Below, one piece after another: positions 4,136 through 29,833 of a stretch of 30,517 nucleotides of DNA. Position numbers and translations under genes: made by a program. Positions within the stretch are counted from its first letter, which is position 1, and each line of letters opens with the position of its first letter. A model generated the notes under the pieces. That model did not search any database and had not been told where the DNA came from. It saw nothing but the letters and a program-made list of their open reading frames with translations. Source of the DNA: a virus; IMG/VR virus record IMGVR_UViG_3300021139_000081, positions 1 through 30,517 of that record. One strand, given 5' to 3'.

Positions 4136-5556
4136 TGGCAAAAATAGCTTTAATCAATGGCTCTTATCAAGCTCGAAGCGTTATAGCATCTGCACAGCGT
4201 TGCGTTAATCTTTATTTAGAAGCCAACCCTGAAACTAGTGTATTTCCATTTACGCACTATCCAACACCAGGATTAACATTATTAGGTAGTGTTCCTGCGT
4301 TTTCTTGGAGAGGATTATATTACGCGTCAAACAATCAACTATATGGTGTTTGCGGTAGTAACGTATATTATATTAGTGAAGATTATGCATTTACATTAAT
4401 CGGAACAATTACATCGGCATCTGGGACAGTATCCATGAATGATAATGGTACAGATCTTATTCTTGTCGATGGCACATTAAATAATGGATGGATTATTCAT
4501 TTATCTACAAATGCTTTTTCAAAAATTGATCAAGCAGGATTTTATGGTGGCAATCAAGTTAATTATGTAGATGGATACTTTGTGCTTAACTATATTGGCA
4601 CAACAGAATGGTATATTTCTTTACCACTTACAACAACTTTTGATCCAACATATTTTGCATCCACAACTGGATCATCGGATTTATTAGTTGGGATTGGTAT
4701 TGCTAAACGGTATCTTTATTTGTTTGGTGAAAATACAACAGAAGTTTGGTTTAATGAAGGAAATACAACATTTCCGTTTGGTAGATTACCTGGCACATTC
4801 ATGCAATATGGATGCGCTGCAACAAACTCTATTACGATGATAGATGGCGATTTATACTGGGTAGCGCAATCATTACAAGGTCAAGCATATATTTGCAGAA
4901 CAAATAACTTTAATGCTGGAATTGTTTCTACTTTTGCAATTAACAACGAATTACAGGGTTATTCAACGCTATCCGATGCAATTGGGTATTCTTACGAGTT
5001 AAATGGTCATTTTTTCTATGTTGTAACATTTCCAACTGCTAATAAAACTTGGGTTTATGACTTATCAAATCAACAATGGAACGAATGGAATGCAGTAGAT
5101 ATTGATGGAACATTGAATAGACATCGTTCTAATTGTTTCGCATTTGCATACAATCAATTAGTTGTTGGTGATTTTGAGAATGGTAATTTATATGCGATAG
5201 ATCAAGACAATTACACAGATAATGGACAACCAATTACTCGAATTCGTGGGTTTTACCACATGGAAGATGATTCATCAAGTCGCGTACATTATCGTAACTT
5301 TATTGCTGAAATGGAATCAGGTAATGGTTATTTAAATAGCTCAACCGAAGTTAATTTACGTTGGTCAGATGATCGCGGTAAGTCTTACAGCAATCCCGTT
5401 ATGCAAAATTTAGGTCAAGAAGGACAATATTTAACAAGCATTAAATGGAATCGTTTAGGAATGGCAAGAGATCGTGTATTTGAAATTTTCTGGAGTGTTC
5501 CAACAAAAACGGCGTTATCTGGTGCTTTTGTAGACGCGTTACCGAATAATGGCTAA
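4135..5556 (+). CDS. Packaged DNA stabilisation protein, P22 gp10-like
   Basis: This 473-residue protein belongs to the gp10 / phage stabilisation family: a beta-propeller ring sitting between gp4 and the needle/tailspike that plugs the head. The start (MAKIALINGSYQARSVIASA, then RCVNLYLEANPE) and the GLTLLGSVPA...RGLYYASNNQLYGVCGSNVYYI segment are the family hallmark. Many short beta repeats with aromatic residues follow (IGIAKRYLYLFGENTTEVWFN). It begins by a 1-base TAATG overlap with the gp4-like gene and ends with an 8-base overlap (ATGGCTAA) into the next, so the three are translationally coupled. Confidence 0.88.
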   Translation: MAKIALINGSYQARSVIASAQRCVNLYLEANPETSVFPFTHYPTPGLTLLGSVPAFSWRGLYYASNNQLYGVCGSNVYYISEDYAFTLIGTITSASGTVSMNDNGTDLILVDGTLNNGWIIHLSTNAFSKIDQAGFYGGNQVNYVDGYFVLNYIGTTEWYISLPLTTTFDPTYFASTTGSSDLLVGIGIAKRYLYLFGENTTEVWFNEGNTTFPFGRLPGTFMQYGCAATNSITMIDGDLYWVAQSLQGQAYICRTNNFNAGIVSTFAINNELQGYSTLSDAIGYSYELNGHFFYVVTFPTANKTWVYDLSNQQWNEWNAVDIDGTLNRHRSNCFAFAYNQLVVGDFENGNLYAIDQDNYTDNGQPITRIRGFYHMEDDSSSRVHYRNFIAEMESGNGYLNSSTEVNLRWSDDRGKSYSNPVMQNLGQEGQYLTSIKWNRLGMARDRVFEIFWSVPTKTALSGAFVDALPNNG

Positions 5557-7363: not shown

Positions 7364-7751
7364 AGAATTCATAACTTCAATTATGCATAATGACAGAGTT
7401 TGGAATTCTGTCAAAGTAGATGATGTAACTAAAGAAATGTATGGGTATTCCGATAGTAACAATTATGTTATTAATGATTATGGATTTATTATGTTTCGCG
7501 GTTTGACACCAACTATGCAAGAAATTCATGTCTGTATGTTGAAGTGCAAAAATACTCAAGAAATTGTTAAAAAAGCTATTGACGAAGTAAGGGCAACAGG
7601 TGTAAAAAAATTCCTTGCGCCTATTGGTGATTGGAACAAAAGTGCATTAAAATTGAGTATGGCTTGTGGATTTATTGAAGAAGGCAGAATTTCAAAAGCC
7701 TATATTAGAAATGGCAACTTTCATTCCATGATTTTAATGGGGAGCAAATAA
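7356..7751 (+). CDS. GNAT-fold acyltransferase-like protein, P22 gp14 position
   Basis: This 131-residue protein has a GNAT-like pattern: a beta-rich first half, then KNTQEIVKKAIDEVRATGVKKFLAPI, NKSALKLSMACGF (residues 94-106) and EEGRISKAYIRNG (108-120), resembling the acetyl-CoA-binding helix and the GF..EG motif that closes the fold. In P22 the small head-assembly protein gp14 lies in this position and belongs to a GNAT-like family (family knowledge). The ATG at 7356 overlaps the preceding stop by 8 bases (ATGTCTAA), like the overlap at 5549, so I prefer it to the TTG nine bases upstream. It ends TAATG into the next gene. Confidence 0.7.
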   Translation: MSKEFITSIMHNDRVWNSVKVDDVTKEMYGYSDSNNYVINDYGFIMFRGLTPTMQEIHVCMLKCKNTQEIVKKAIDEVRATGVKKFLAPIGDWNKSALKLSMACGFIEEGRISKAYIRNGNFHSMILMGSK

Positions 7752-8440
7752 TGAGTTTTATATCAAATGCAATTGGTAGTTTATTTGGGACAACCCAACA
7801 AGCTGATGCCGCTACTCTTGCTTCACAACAACAAGCACAATCTCAAGCTGCAGCTCAAGCCGCTTTACAGAAAAATCTTGCTCCATATTCGCAAATTGGG
7901 ACAGCAGTTTTGCCTCAATTACTTAAATCTTTAGGTTATAACGGAACTTTTGATAGCTCAGGGAATATATCAGGTATCACAGGATCAGGTTTTCAATTTA
8001 ATCCTACCGATTTACAAAATACACCTGGTTATCAATTTACATTAAATCAAGGTTTGCAAGGTGTTAATAATCAAATGTCATCGCAGGGTTTATTAGGGAG
8101 TGGCGCACAGCAAAAAGCTATTGCAAATTATACAACTGGGTTAGCTCAAAATACTTACAACCAACAATATCAAAATGCATTAAGCCAATATATGACTAAT
8201 GCTGGTCAGTTAGGTAATTTATTAAATCTTGGTCAAAACGCTGCCGCTGGTATTGGTCAGGGTGCTTATAACTCAAATGTAAATGCTGGAAATGCTTTGG
8301 CTGCAGGTACAACTGCTGCTGGTTCACAAACAGCTAATACAATGAATTCATTATTAGGTGCAGGAAAAGCTGCTGCTAGTATTTATTCTGTGGCAAATAC
8401 ACCTTCTGTTGCAGCTTCTATAGCTGCTTTATTTGCATAA
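7751..8440 (+). CDS. DNA ejection protein, P22 gp7-like
   Basis: This 229-residue Ala/Gln/Gly-rich protein begins with a short hydrophobic N-terminus (FISNAIGSLFG). The middle segment NTPGYQFTLNQGLQGVNNQM, then GLLGSGAQQKAIANY, is widespread in predicted ejected internal proteins of podoviruses. The rest is low-complexity amphipathic sequence with Ala-rich helices, suited to crossing or lining the cell envelope channel. It is the first of three consecutive genes whose order matches P22 genes 7, 20 and 16, and P22 gp7 is of similar length. The start overlaps the previous stop (TAATG). Confidence 0.75.
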   Translation: MSFISNAIGSLFGTTQQADAATLASQQQAQSQAAAQAALQKNLAPYSQIGTAVLPQLLKSLGYNGTFDSSGNISGITGSGFQFNPTDLQNTPGYQFTLNQGLQGVNNQMSSQGLLGSGAQQKAIANYTTGLAQNTYNQQYQNALSQYMTNAGQLGNLLNLGQNAAAGIGQGAYNSNVNAGNALAAGTTAAGSQTANTMNSLLGAGKAAASIYSVANTPSVAASIAALFA

Positions 8441-8448
8441 GGAATAAT

Positions 8449-9936
8449 ATGGACTTTGCACAATCAACAAATGTAATACCTCAAAAAATGGTAACACCTA
8501 ATTTTGATCAAATTCCAGAAGGAATTAATCAAATTTTAAATATACAAAAAAATAAAGTTGGACTTGAGCAAGCTAAACAATCTTTATTAGCAAACAAATC
8601 CGTATCTAAAGCAATTAAAGAAAATACGAGCGAAGATGGCAATTTAGATGTTCCAAGCATTATTAGTCAATTATCAAAAGATGAAAATGCATCTATTAAT
8701 TTGCCTCAATTAGCAACACAACTGTTGCAATTAAAAGGTCAGCAATTTACTACGGATACTGCAAAATTAACTAATTTAGCAACAAAAAACACATTGGCTG
8801 GTCAAAGACTTGCGCCAATGGTGGCAGATATTAATGATAACAAATTAATACCGAGAGAAAGATTAATTAATGAATATGCTCATTTAACAAAAGTTGGAGT
8901 ATTTACCCCACAAGAAGCTATGCAACATATTGGGATGCTTCCTGAAAAGTCTAATGATCCTGAACAAGAAAAATTAAATATTCATAACTTTATTAAAAAC
9001 GAGCATTTAGCAACAATTAACAACGAACAGTTATTAAGCAAATTATTGCCACAACAGCAATATATTGCCACAGGAGCAGGAACGCAGATATTAAACGTAA
9101 ATCCATTAACAGGAAAATCAAATCCTAATGGATTTATACAAGGTCAAATGCCTGTAGGAACTCCATTAGTAGCGCAAGAAGGAAATAATCTTGGATTACC
9201 TGCTGGTACTCAATATCTTTTAGGCCCAAGTGGTGCGCCTACTATTATTCCTCAAGGTAGTTCACAAGGACAAACTACAAATCCTGCTCCAATGGTATCT
9301 GGATTAGCACCAACAACTACAGCGAATCTTGATACAGGTAACACTTTAATTAAATCCGCAAGAGAGGAAGCGAGCAAAGTACCTGATATTCGTTTTAACA
9401 CCAATAAAATTATTGAATTGGCTAAGAAAACAACAACTGGTAGCGGTGCTGATTTAGTTCGTAACTTGCGTGGTGGTTTTGCTGTATTGCCATATACAGA
9501 TGATAAAGCAACAAACTTTGATTTATTAGGCCATCAATTATCTTTACAAACACAAGCTGCAGCTAATTCACCAGGAATTAATGGAACAAATGCTGGTCAA
9601 GCATTGGCTTCACAAATTGGCGGACACGAACATTGGACTGAAGATGCTCTTGTACAAGCATCTCGTATTAATAGAGCAATGGCAGAAGCAAAAGAATTGT
9701 TTAACGAAGGCATTAAAAATCTTACTCCTGAAAAAGCAATTAAATACCAAAACTCATGGAATAAGACATTGGATGTTAATACATTGCGTTTGTATGATGC
9801 GTTTAAAAATAAAAGTGAAGATCCAAATGGATATAAAGAAATTGTTAAAGAACTTGGTGGGCCAAAATCTGAAAGATTTATTAATGCTGCAAAACATTTA
9901 GATAAGATTAATGAATTAATATTGAAGGGTGAATAA
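8449..9936 (+). CDS. Putative internal ejection protein, P22 gp20 position
   Basis: This 495-residue protein has no motif I can name. The first ~210 residues are helical, with repeated Gln/Leu/Lys heptad-like stretches. A Gly/Pro/Thr-rich linker follows at ~215-290 (NPLTGKSNPNGFIQGQMPVG, then PAGTQYLLGPSGAPTIIPQG). The C-terminal ~200 residues are again helical. Its place between the gp7-like gene and the large lysozyme-bearing protein, plus size close to P22 gp20, suggest the middle ejection protein. GGAATA before the ATG supports the start. It ends with a TAATG overlap into the next gene. Confidence 0.6.
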   Translation: MDFAQSTNVIPQKMVTPNFDQIPEGINQILNIQKNKVGLEQAKQSLLANKSVSKAIKENTSEDGNLDVPSIISQLSKDENASINLPQLATQLLQLKGQQFTTDTAKLTNLATKNTLAGQRLAPMVADINDNKLIPRERLINEYAHLTKVGVFTPQEAMQHIGMLPEKSNDPEQEKLNIHNFIKNEHLATINNEQLLSKLLPQQQYIATGAGTQILNVNPLTGKSNPNGFIQGQMPVGTPLVAQEGNNLGLPAGTQYLLGPSGAPTIIPQGSSQGQTTNPAPMVSGLAPTTTANLDTGNTLIKSAREEASKVPDIRFNTNKIIELAKKTTTGSGADLVRNLRGGFAVLPYTDDKATNFDLLGHQLSLQTQAAANSPGINGTNAGQALASQIGGHEHWTEDALVQASRINRAMAEAKELFNEGIKNLTPEKAIKYQNSWNKTLDVNTLRLYDAFKNKSEDPNGYKEIVKELGGPKSERFINAAKHLDKINELILKGE

Positions 9937-26946: not shown

Positions 26947-27105
26947 ATGAAAAACGGTCTTTATGCAAATCTCCATGCGAAACAAAAACGCATAGCTGAA
27001 GAAAAAGAAGAAGGTAAGAAAGTTGAGCGCATGAGAAAGCCAGGTACTAAAGGTGCGCCAACTGCCAAAGCGTTTAAAGAATCAGCTAAGACTGCTAAGA
27101 AATGA
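26947..27105 (+). CDS. Small basic phage protein, 52 aa
   Basis: The protein begins MKNGLYANLHAKQKRIAEEK and ends KPGTKGAPTAKAFKESAKTA plus KK. This is a family I recognise from many phages, with the fixed pattern NGLYANIHAK, then MRKPG.KGAPTA.AF..SAKTAKK. Function is unknown; the strong positive charge suggests DNA or virion association. It ends with an ATGA overlap into the next gene. Confidence 0.75.
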   Translation: MKNGLYANLHAKQKRIAEEKEEGKKVERMRKPGTKGAPTAKAFKESAKTAKK

Positions 27106-27374
27106 AAAAGCACGACAAACCAATACCACATAAAACAACTGGTAAGGGTAAGACATATAATCCTACTGACAAAGGTGCAGGAATGACTGCTAAAGGTCGT
27201 GAGGAATATAACGAAAAGAATGGAAGTAATTTAAAAGCACCAGCTCCAAATCCAAAGACAAAGAAAGACGAAGGCCGTAAGAAATCTTTTTGCGCGCGGA
27301 TGGAAGGGGTAGTTAAAAACGCTAAAGGCCCAGCAGAACGAGCCAAAGCATCTTTAAAAAACTGGAATTGCTAA
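27102..27374 (+). CDS. DUF6321-like basic protein
   Basis: This 90-residue protein has the pattern GAGMTAKGREEYNEKNGSNL, KAPAPNPKTKKDEGRKKSFC, ARMEGV and KASLKNWNC at the end. It fits the DUF6321-type proteins common in aquatic phages, which sit beside terminase genes. Two conserved Cys (in SFCARM and the last residue) might be paired or bind metal. Function unknown. Coupled to its neighbours by ATGA and TAATG. Confidence 0.7.
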   Translation: MKKHDKPIPHKTTGKGKTYNPTDKGAGMTAKGREEYNEKNGSNLKAPAPNPKTKKDEGRKKSFCARMEGVVKNAKGPAERAKASLKNWNC

Positions 27375-27655
27375 TGGATATTGAATTATTAGATAGCAGA
27401 AGTATATTAGAAAAGTTAATGAATCATTTTGGTTGGTATAAAACTCAAATGTCAGACGTTAAAATTGACAAATTAGAAGTTGATTACCGTTTTATTGTCG
27501 AAGTTCCAAAGGAAGTGCAAGATGCCATTAATCAAAAGCAAGTCGAAAAAAGCAATAGACAAGAACATAGAAACAGAAATCAAAGCAGGAAAACCACAAA
27601 AGCAAGCAGTAGCGATAGCATTAAACGTACAACGAGCAGCGCAAAAAAAGGATAA
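27374..27655 (+). CDS. Hypothetical protein, 93 aa, C-terminal half overprinted by the next gene
   Basis: The first ~50 residues look like a real domain ([20 protein letters not shown], then [20 protein letters not shown]), a helix-strand unit of unknown function. From residue ~50 the sequence becomes [20 protein letters not shown]-type low complexity, exactly where the 27522 gene begins in another frame. The tail may be tolerated overprinted sequence. Start from TAATG coupling. Confidence 0.6.
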
Positions 27656-27665
27656 AAAGAAATGA
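27522..27665 (+). CDS. Conserved small basic protein, 47 aa ([11 protein letters not shown] family)
   Basis: The start [20 protein letters not shown] and continuation [20 protein letters not shown] form a family found in very many phages, with almost no change in the first ten residues. It has AAAGGAAG at the correct spacing. It lies +1 shifted inside the 3' half of the 27374 gene for 134 bases and extends 10 bases past it. Function unknown, but the strong conservation makes this ORF real. ATGA overlap with the next gene. Confidence 0.8.
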
Positions 27666-27889
27666 TGATCCCATTTCACATTGACCAAATTAACGAAATA
27701 TTAAAGTATCTTGATGACGTACCACATAGGTTTAGTCGTGGACTTGTTGATTACTTTAAGAACCATGTTGAAAACCATGTAAAACAAGCTGAATCTGAAG
27801 TTGCTAATGTTGAAAAAAAAGTAGTTGAAGAAGTAAAACAAAACATTACTGAAGTTAAAACTGAAATTTTAGACGTAGTACAAAAATGA
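27662..27889 (+). CDS. Small coiled-coil protein, 75 aa
   Basis: The N-terminus is a globular-looking helix ([20 protein letters not shown]), followed from residue ~35 by a long amphipathic Val/Glu/Lys helix with heptads ([20 protein letters not shown]). No family recognised. Two consecutive ATGs; the first overlaps the upstream stop. Coupled by ATGA to the next small gene. Confidence 0.6.
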
Positions 27890-28044
27890 ACGATTTACTA
27901 TTAGAGTTTTACCTAACTTGGGTAGAGATGGTAAAGATCGTACCCAGCAATCGCCTTGAACAACAACGAGGCGAGTTATTAGCACAAAAACTATTAAATG
28001 TATCCACTAAGATACAAGAAGAATTAAATAAAGTTAAAAACTAA
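27886..28044 (+). CDS. Small helical protein, 52 aa
   Basis: The protein begins [20 protein letters not shown] and continues SNRLEQQRGELLAQKLLNVS, helical and slightly acidic. No family recognised. Its ATG overlaps the upstream TGA (ATGA), which supports translation. It is the last gene before the AT-rich gap in front of the terminase genes. Confidence 0.55.
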   Translation: MNDLLLEFYLTWVEMVKIVPSNRLEQQRGELLAQKLLNVSTKIQEELNKVKN

Positions 28045-28145: not shown

Positions 28146-28481
28146 ATGATAGCTCACGAACCAACTGACGTTACAAGAGAAGTAGTTAAGACTTCAAGTG
28201 GACTAGGTTTGCCACAAGAACAGATATGCGCTTTAGTTGGCATACTTGATTCTAAGACATTACGAAAACATTATGAAAAAGAACTTGCGCTTGGCAAAGC
28301 AGAAGCAAGCTCTAAAATCGCTAACTCTTTATTCAATAAAGCTCAGAATGGTGATACTACTGCAATGATCTGGTGGACTAAGGCACAGATGAAGTGGAGT
28401 GAAACTGTTAAACAAGAATTGACTGGTGCTGACGGTGGCGCATTAACAGTCCACTTGTTACCTCAAGATGAAAATGCGTGA
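28146..28481 (+). CDS. Terminase small subunit
   Basis: This 111-residue protein lies immediately before the large subunit, in the universal order. Residues ~8-45 form an HTH-like DNA-binding region (VTREVVKTSSGLGLPQEQIC, then GILDSKTLRKHYEKEL). It continues with GKAEASSKIANSLFNKAQNG and DTTAMIWWTKAQMKW, the oligomerisation part typical of TerS. It recognises the concatemer for packaging. The stop overlaps the GTG start of the large subunit. Confidence 0.85.
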   Translation: MIAHEPTDVTREVVKTSSGLGLPQEQICALVGILDSKTLRKHYEKELALGKAEASSKIANSLFNKAQNGDTTAMIWWTKAQMKWSETVKQELTGADGGALTVHLLPQDENA

Positions 28482-29833
28482 AACTACATAATAAACAAGT
28501 AGAAGCATTAAATGTAATCAATGGAAGCGCGACTTATGCCATGTTATTTGGTGGCAGTCGATCTGGCAAAACTTTTCTTATTGTTAGACAAGTTATCGTA
28601 AGGGCAATGAAAGCTCCTAAATCGCGTCATGCCATATTACGGTTTAGGTTTAATCAAGTTAAGAACTCTATTGTTTATGACACTTTTCCAAAGGTCATGG
28701 ATTTATGTTTTCCAGGCATCCAGTACAAGATTAACAAAACTGATTGGTTTATTACCTTGCCGAACGGTTCAGAGATATGGTTCGGTGGCCTTGATGACAA
28801 GGAACGTACGGAGAAGATTCTAGGTATGGAGTTTGTAACTTTATATTTAAACGAGTGTTCGCAGATACCTTATCCTAGCGTTGGAATAGCAATTACACGT
28901 TTAGCACAAAAAGTAGAACAGATTATTGAGGGTAAGCATCCTACGCTGCTTAAACCTAGAATGTACTTTGACTGCAATCCACCTAATAAAAACCATTGGA
29001 CTTATCAATTATTTATTCAACATCGAGATCCAGATACTAAAGAAGTTATATCTAATGAGTTTGAGTATGTACATTTTCAAATTAATCCATACGATAACAA
29101 AGAAAATTTATCAGATGGTTATTTAGACACACTTAAAAACCTAAGCGCAAGATTAAGAAAACGATTTCTGGAAGGAGAATTTGCCGATGCTAACCCTAAT
29201 CAATTATTTGCGGAAGAATTTATCGACAAATGGCGAGTGGAAGACGAACGTCTACCTGACTTTGTACGGGTTCTTGTCGGTGTTGATCCAAGCGGTTCTG
29301 GTGATACTGATAATGCAGATAACGATGCTATTGGAATCGTGGTCGGTGCTTTGGGTGTAGATGGTAATGCTTATTTATTAGAAGATTGTACGGTTAAAGC
29401 TGGCCCTGCAACATGGGGAAAGGTAGTTGTATCTGCGTTTGAACGTCATAAAGCAGATCTTGTATTAGCTGAATCCAACTTTGGTGGTGCAATGGTAGAG
29501 CAAGTAATACAATCTGCACGACCAAGAACGCCATATAAAGCTGTAAGTGCTTCTCGCGGCAAGGTAATTCGTGCTGAACCCTTTTCACTTTTGTATGAAC
29601 AAGGTAAAATAAGACATTGTGGCAGATTTATTGAGCTTGAAGATGAAATGGCTGGATTTTCTACGCAAGGATATATAGGTAATCTATCACCTAACAGGGT
29701 AGATGCTTGGATTTGGGTATTAACAGAGTTGTTTCCTGGCATGGTGCGTGAAAAAGTTGAGAAAAAATTAACAATACCAAGAAAACCCCCAATGATTACT
29801 AGAAATGGTAATTATGGTGGTTCTTGGATGTGA
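28478..29833 (+). CDS. Terminase large subunit (ATPase and nuclease)
   Basis: This 451-residue packaging motor has Walker A GGSRSGKT (25-32) and Walker B TLYLNE with catalytic Glu126. A coupling-like region CNPPNKNHW (166-174) follows. The RNase H-like nuclease has acidic residues in VGVDPSG (Asp270), LAESNFGG (Glu332) and NRVDAWIW (Asp409). It pumps DNA through the portal and cuts it at the end of a headful. The start is GTG overlapping the terS stop (GTGA); the nearby ATG at 28474 is in another frame. The portal follows after 7 bases. Confidence 0.93.
   Translation: MKLHNKQVEALNVINGSATYAMLFGGSRSGKTFLIVRQVIVRAMKAPKSRHAILRFRFNQVKNSIVYDTFPKVMDLCFPGIQYKINKTDWFITLPNGSEIWFGGLDDKERTEKILGMEFVTLYLNECSQIPYPSVGIAITRLAQKVEQIIEGKHPTLLKPRMYFDCNPPNKNHWTYQLFIQHRDPDTKEVISNEFEYVHFQINPYDNKENLSDGYLDTLKNLSARLRKRFLEGEFADANPNQLFAEEFIDKWRVEDERLPDFVRVLVGVDPSGSGDTDNADNDAIGIVVGALGVDGNAYLLEDCTVKAGPATWGKVVVSAFERHKADLVLAESNFGGAMVEQVIQSARPRTPYKAVSASRGKVIRAEPFSLLYEQGKIRHCGRFIELEDEMAGFSTQGYIGNLSPNRVDAWIWVLTELFPGMVREKVEKKLTIPRKPPMITRNGNYGGSWM

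Follow-up and report, generated by a model that had tools for sequence, protein, structure and literature searches.

Overprinting of the phage phrog_2423 gene by an upstream gene that has probably lost its own tail

In a stretch of viral DNA of 30,517 nucleotides (IMG/VR virus record IMGVR_UViG_3300021139_000081, positions 1 to 30,517; hereafter the window), a 93-residue gene, ORF1 (27374..27655, + strand), was found to run in another frame through nearly the whole of a conserved gene of 47 codons, phrog_2423 (27522..27665, + strand). We consider it likely that ORF1 lost its native tail in the lineage of the window, that its stop codon was removed, that it was thereby extended over phrog_2423, and that the extended frame has been under selection.

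A first-pass annotation, made from the letters of the window, had described an overlap of 134 bases between the two genes, and the overlap was confirmed at 27522..27655 on the + strand. ORF1 begins with the ATG at 27374 and ends with the stop codon at 27653-27655; use of a TTG two codons upstream would give a protein of 95 aa. The phrog_2423 gene runs from the ATG at 27522 to the stop codon at 27663-27665, and its product matches the phrog_2423 profile over nearly the full length (E=3.6e-20; residues 1-45 of 47 on profile positions 1-45 of 52). Both starts are preceded by motifs that, read by eye, resemble Shine-Dalgarno sequences: GGAA (27364..27367, + strand) lies 6 bases before the start of ORF1, and AGGA (27510..27513, + strand) lies 8 bases before that of phrog_2423, inside ORF1 codons. 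The two starts are 148 bases apart, and phrog_2423 is in the +1 frame relative to ORF1. Therefore, the third and second codon positions of phrog_2423 fall on first and third positions of ORF1, respectively. The ORF1 frame read over phrog_2423 is referred to below as frame A.

ORF1 consists of a conserved N-terminal part of about 45 residues and the overprinted tail. Outside the overlap (27374..27521, + strand), the core EKxMNHxGWYKT is conserved and the gene is under purifying selection. A family search with ORF1 gave no match in Pfam at E 1, a best NCBIfam match to an unrelated model (E=0.047), and only marginal matches in PHROGs (E=0.016 and 0.11). An AlphaFold2 model built from a 16-row alignment was poor, with a mean pLDDT of 53 and a pTM of 0.18. 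Judging by its position and composition, ORF1 may assist head assembly or packaging as an accessory protein whose basic tail is replaceable.

The pair belongs to a cassette of mini-genes, all on the + strand. Upstream are the phrog_16028 gene (26947..27105, 52 aa, E=9.3e-19) and the DUF6321 gene (27102..27374, 90 aa, E=3.8e-18), the stop codon of which shares one base with the start of ORF1 (TAATG); the other cassette genes are joined by overlaps of 1-11 bases. The pair had been placed in front of the terminase genes. It is indeed upstream of them, but not directly, as two small genes lie between: one at 27662..27889, the start of which overlaps the phrog_2423 stop by 4 bases, and one of 52 aa at 27886..28044, for which no family scored above the curated cut-off. 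These are followed by the genes of the terminase small subunit (28146..28481, phrog_309 E=9.2e-15) and large subunit (28478..29833, PF04466 E=2.7e-19). In the literature search, the term DUF6321 was not found, nor were the names phrog_2423 and phrog_16028 as spelled here.

Judged from its distribution, phrog_2423 is the older frame, in agreement with the first-pass annotation, and it occurs without the long overlap. By tblastn, phrog_2423 was detected in 524 of 50,697 named phage records at E 0.01, whereas ORF1 had no match among them at E 1. In five matching records that were inspected, the annotated upstream gene overlaps phrog_2423 by 1, 14, 1, 0 and 0 bases; three of the five have portal, GroES, coat or terminase genes at a distance of no more than about 1.5 kb from phrog_2423. 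Frame A is open for at least 134 bases in 3 of 76 other distinct phrog_2423 genes (L104, L045 and L048, all above 54% G+C; L029, where frame A is open far past phrog_2423, is outside this set), and it is open for at least 120 bases in none of the 28 phrog_2423 genes below 45% G+C that are without the long overlap. In L045 and L048 (about 57% G+C), frame A remains open until 188 bases beyond the start of phrog_2423 and contains neither an ATG nor a GTG start. L104, in which frame A is open for 137 bases and an ORF of 78 aa from GTG or 73 aa from ATG can be read, was considered as an independent overprint. This candidate was dismissed, as the matches of its relatives L115-L117 begin only at about residue 20 and fall mostly within the overlap, and the upstream part differs; in L116 and L117 that part runs through the frame of another gene. 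L104 has 55% G+C, where open frames come easier, and L114 is its own contig.

Scanning viral contigs with ORF1 yielded 30 loci. Sixteen of them (L001-L016) encode ORF1 at 66-100% identity with a start offset of 148 and an open tail. The same layout was found in L113, a genome contig in a Methylococcales MAG, which gives a weak hint as to the host; the phages of this lineage are known here from environmental sequence only. All 18 lineage loci (the window, L001-L016 and L113) have the long-overlap layout, and they comprise 13 distinct sequences over 292 bases. Among these 13, the overlap measures 134 bases in nine, 137 in one and 140 in three, and ORF1 has 93-95 aa in every one, so that its length agrees among orthologues within the lineage and differs from the 73-84 aa of its short-tailed relatives. 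L029 and L030 were ruled out as relatives of ORF1, as they match only residues 48-93 and 46-76, which is phrog_2423 read in the other frame.

The short-tailed relatives represent a second layout. In L017-L028 the first part of ORF1 is encoded at 38-55% identity, and a second scan added L032 (29 loci in all). With the exception of L021, which is cut off by the end of its contig, the proteins of L017-L028 and L032 are 73-84 aa long and finish with a basic, Lys-rich tail of their own that reads KPALKKATTRK or similar. Among the 12 loci L017-L028, 10 have phrog_16028 as the next gene found, and phrog_2423 follows ORF1 directly in L023 and L032, in which ORF1 stops 29 and 26 bases inside phrog_2423. 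Whether the upstream ORF stops earlier in relatives, a check proposed in the first-pass annotation, can thus be answered with yes: it has its own tail there, and it overlaps phrog_2423 not at all or by 26-29 bases. The start offsets of 226 in L023, 211 in L032 and 148 in the lineage of the window are all 1 mod 3, i.e., the two genes have the same relative frame in both layouts. In a DNA alignment, the lineage of the window lacks a net 63 bases relative to L032 and a net 78 relative to L023, within the native-tail stretch. We infer that the change went from the short to the long overlap. As a separate observation, L078, L088 and L092 have a 67-aa ORF that does not visibly resemble ORF1 but shares 50 bases with phrog_2423, in the same frame as ORF1.

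Considering these layouts, we propose that the ancestral ORF1 was a small cassette gene ahead of the terminase genes that adjoined phrog_2423, with its own Lys-rich tail and a stop codon about 26-29 bases into phrog_2423; L032 and L023 would still display this arrangement. In the lineage of the window, some 21-26 codons with the native tail would have been lost in frame, and the old stop would have been removed by changes in phrog_2423 codons, after which the ORF1 frame would have continued, as a second frame, across nearly the whole of phrog_2423. The likeliest role of the tail may be that ORF1 needs a soluble, basic and probably disordered C-terminal extension in which the exact residues matter little, and phrog_2423 read in frame A would happen to supply an extension that replaces the lost one. 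The tail is probably translated and retained.

Substitutions were compared in both frames, as the first-pass annotation had suggested. Within the overlap, parsimony changes per site were 0.45, 0.14 and 1.41 at the first, second and third codon positions of phrog_2423 (20, 6 and 62 changes at 44 sites each). The values by codon position were 0.63, 0.26 and 1.14 in the first 43 ORF1 codons, which precede the phrog_2423 ribosome-binding motif. Among the overlap changes in five sister pairs, 2 were silent in both frames, 25 in phrog_2423 only, 2 in ORF1 only and 3 in neither. Rough dN/dS was 0.05 for phrog_2423 and 0.22 for the part of ORF1 outside the overlap. The tail gave 1.65, a value that is inflated because nearly all changes that are silent in phrog_2423 are non-silent in ORF1. 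Selection on tail residues was not detected in the five sister pairs, in which the rate of changes that are silent in phrog_2423 and alter ORF1 was 0.183, compared with a synonymous rate of 0.204 in ORF1 outside the overlap. The tail residues are therefore nearly unconstrained, and substitutions in the overlap follow the codons of phrog_2423. Conservation of the tail across phages had been named as something that would refute the extension; the frame is indeed open in 13 of 13 distinct sequences, but the residues were not seen to be conserved beyond the constraint of phrog_2423.

The Ser/Lys/Arg-rich look of the tail is a by-product of phrog_2423 read in frame A. It had been taken as the mark of a frame extended over an existing gene, and the older gene does yield it. 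The extension appears to have been accompanied by the loss of a native basic tail, which could not be seen from the window. Hydrophobic residues in the tail are below the expectation given an open frame in 13 of 13 sequences (P up to 0.021 each, the values not being independent). Basic charge was unsupported as a selected trait of the tail, since the net charge is below the simulated mean in all 13.

Frame A is held open beyond chance. When the phrog_2423 protein was fixed and its codons were drawn from the usage of the window, the probability of a frame open at least as long was 0.0002 for the window and ranged from 0.00005 to 0.043 among the 13 distinct sequences; simulated frames closed after a median of 14 bases. 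In a neutral simulation that let third positions evolve on the tree at roughly the observed rate, only 1 of 2400 runs (eight settings) left the frame open at all 13 tips. The simulated number of T was as low as the observed 12 in only one of the eight settings, with a lowest count there of 9.

A stop codon arises in frame A when a phrog_2423 codon ending in T precedes AA, AG or GA. In the overlap, T is present at 0 of 101 such would-be stop sites; seven short-tailed relatives have it at 28 of 69, 19 unrelated low-G+C genes at 120 of 197, and L078 and L088 together at 9 of 24. As the sequences are related, these cells do not count as independent. In the two main controls, the would-be stop sites carry T most often or nearly so. 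The depletion of T from phrog_2423 third positions is strong and local. At third positions capable of T, the overlap has T in 12 of 312, the first 43 ORF1 codons in 237 of 317, the upstream gene in 391 of 851 (a count that takes in some frame before its start codon) and the downstream gene in 301 of 512 (L004 having no downstream count). In the phrog_2423 genes of the 28 low-G+C loci without the long overlap, T is present in 339 of 823. T is equally rare in the overlap where it would yield a harmless Ser (3 of 56) and where it would yield Phe, Leu, Tyr, Cys or Trp (9 of 155). This indicates that composition, and not stop avoidance alone, differs in the overlap, and a general shortage of T could also hold the frame open. 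Selection appears, from these sequence patterns, to have kept the extra frame open.

The scarcity of T at harmless Ser sites suits an explanation that we regard as unlikely, in which ORF1 lost its stop codon, the phrog_2423 third positions were poor in T for an unrelated reason (local composition, expression-related codon choice or an RNA-level signal), and no selection acts on the tail. The nearly free change of tail residues is consistent with it, as is the G+C-richer group L104 and L115-L117, which has an open frame A across phrog_2423 and lacks a conserved gene upstream. However, the shortage of T is limited to the overlap and is seen neither before nor after it. Moreover, the low-G+C loci without the long overlap do carry T and never have frame A open for 120 bases, and the sites from which T is wholly absent are those where the controls carry it most or nearly most often. 

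A bolder version of the explanation that we prefer, possible but less likely than not, is that the tail was swapped by overprinting. A protein in need of a basic disordered tail would have lost its native one and recruited the coding sequence of the neighbour, read in another frame, to take over its work, since such reading turns a Lys/Ala-rich gene into a peptide rich in Lys/Arg/Ser/Thr. Selection would then act on the open frame and the bulk composition and not on the residues, and its signature would be the near-exclusion of one base from the third positions of the older gene.

A further explanation is translational coupling, in which the tail peptide itself would be irrelevant. The phrog_2423 ribosome-binding motif sits within ORF1 codons, and short overlaps join the other cassette genes, so that ribosomes on ORF1 might traverse phrog_2423 and thereby set its initiation rate or protect the message. 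For such coupling a stop near the second start would suffice, as in L023 and L032, and the overlap of 134-140 bases in all 13 sequences would be left unexplained; we consider it quite improbable. A +1 frameshift within the overlap that would produce a fusion protein of ORF1 and phrog_2423 is highly improbable. The frames are offset by +1 and other phages have phrog_2423 fused with further cassette domains, but phrog_2423 retains its own start and ribosome-binding motif here, and ORF1 and phrog_2423 adjoin only in L023 among the 12 short-tailed loci L017-L028 (L021 being cut off before this point).

Loss of the native tail followed by extension under selection, the explanation that we prefer, resembles the unidirectional overlap by 3' elongation of an upstream gene described by Fonseca, Harris and Posada (2013, PMC3887535), in which the upstream gene loses its stop and uses one inside the downstream gene. 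Here, in contrast, the native tail appears to have been lost as well, and the frame has remained open across 93-97% of the downstream gene while some 60 changes accumulated at third positions. According to that study, long overlaps of one phase can be explained without selection. In cellular genomes, long overlaps on the same strand have been put down to annotation errors: in the work by Palleja, Harrington and Bork (2008, PMC2478687), none of 715 long co-directional overlaps from 338 prokaryotic genomes was accepted, and the longest real one had 56 bases (holD/rimI). Like those cases, the present overlap is co-directional and longer than 60 bases, and orthologue length serves as the test; unlike them, an overlap of 134-140 bases recurs in 13 distinct sequences, which makes annotation or sequencing error an unlikely cause. 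De novo viral proteins can arise by overprinting of an older, widely distributed frame by a newer one (e.g., PMC3744397 and PMC8227390), whereas here only the tail is new and the N-terminal part of ORF1 is an older gene. No description of the ORF1/phrog_2423 case was found among the listed titles and abstract openings on overlapping genes. For the long overlap of ORF1 there are counterparts in which the apparently earlier layout is preserved, and with it one could examine whether selection can act on a tail in which only the composition is constrained. As a simple signature for finding other cases, we suggest the exclusion of T from the third positions of the older gene.

The cassette genes occur in further arrangements. 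In L039, L060, L062, L064 and L103, phrog_16028, DUF6321 and phrog_2423, which are separate in the window, form one continuous protein, and phrog_2423 and DUF6321 are fused in L038 and L045. In Acinetobacter phage IME-AB2 (L118:701-1541), the region matching phrog_2423 forms the beginning of a far longer gene (7557-8891 of the record), another fusion. Because the mini-genes are fused in other phages, the products of phrog_2423, phrog_16028 and DUF6321 probably act together near the packaging genes. GroES-like genes lie beside the cassette in several loci, recognised by motif only in all but L032. There, a GroES-like co-chaperonin gene (2681-2995) stands just before ORF1 and matches the phrog_3188 GroES profile, and in L113 a GroES-like gene (4424-4723), by motif only, stands just before DUF6321.
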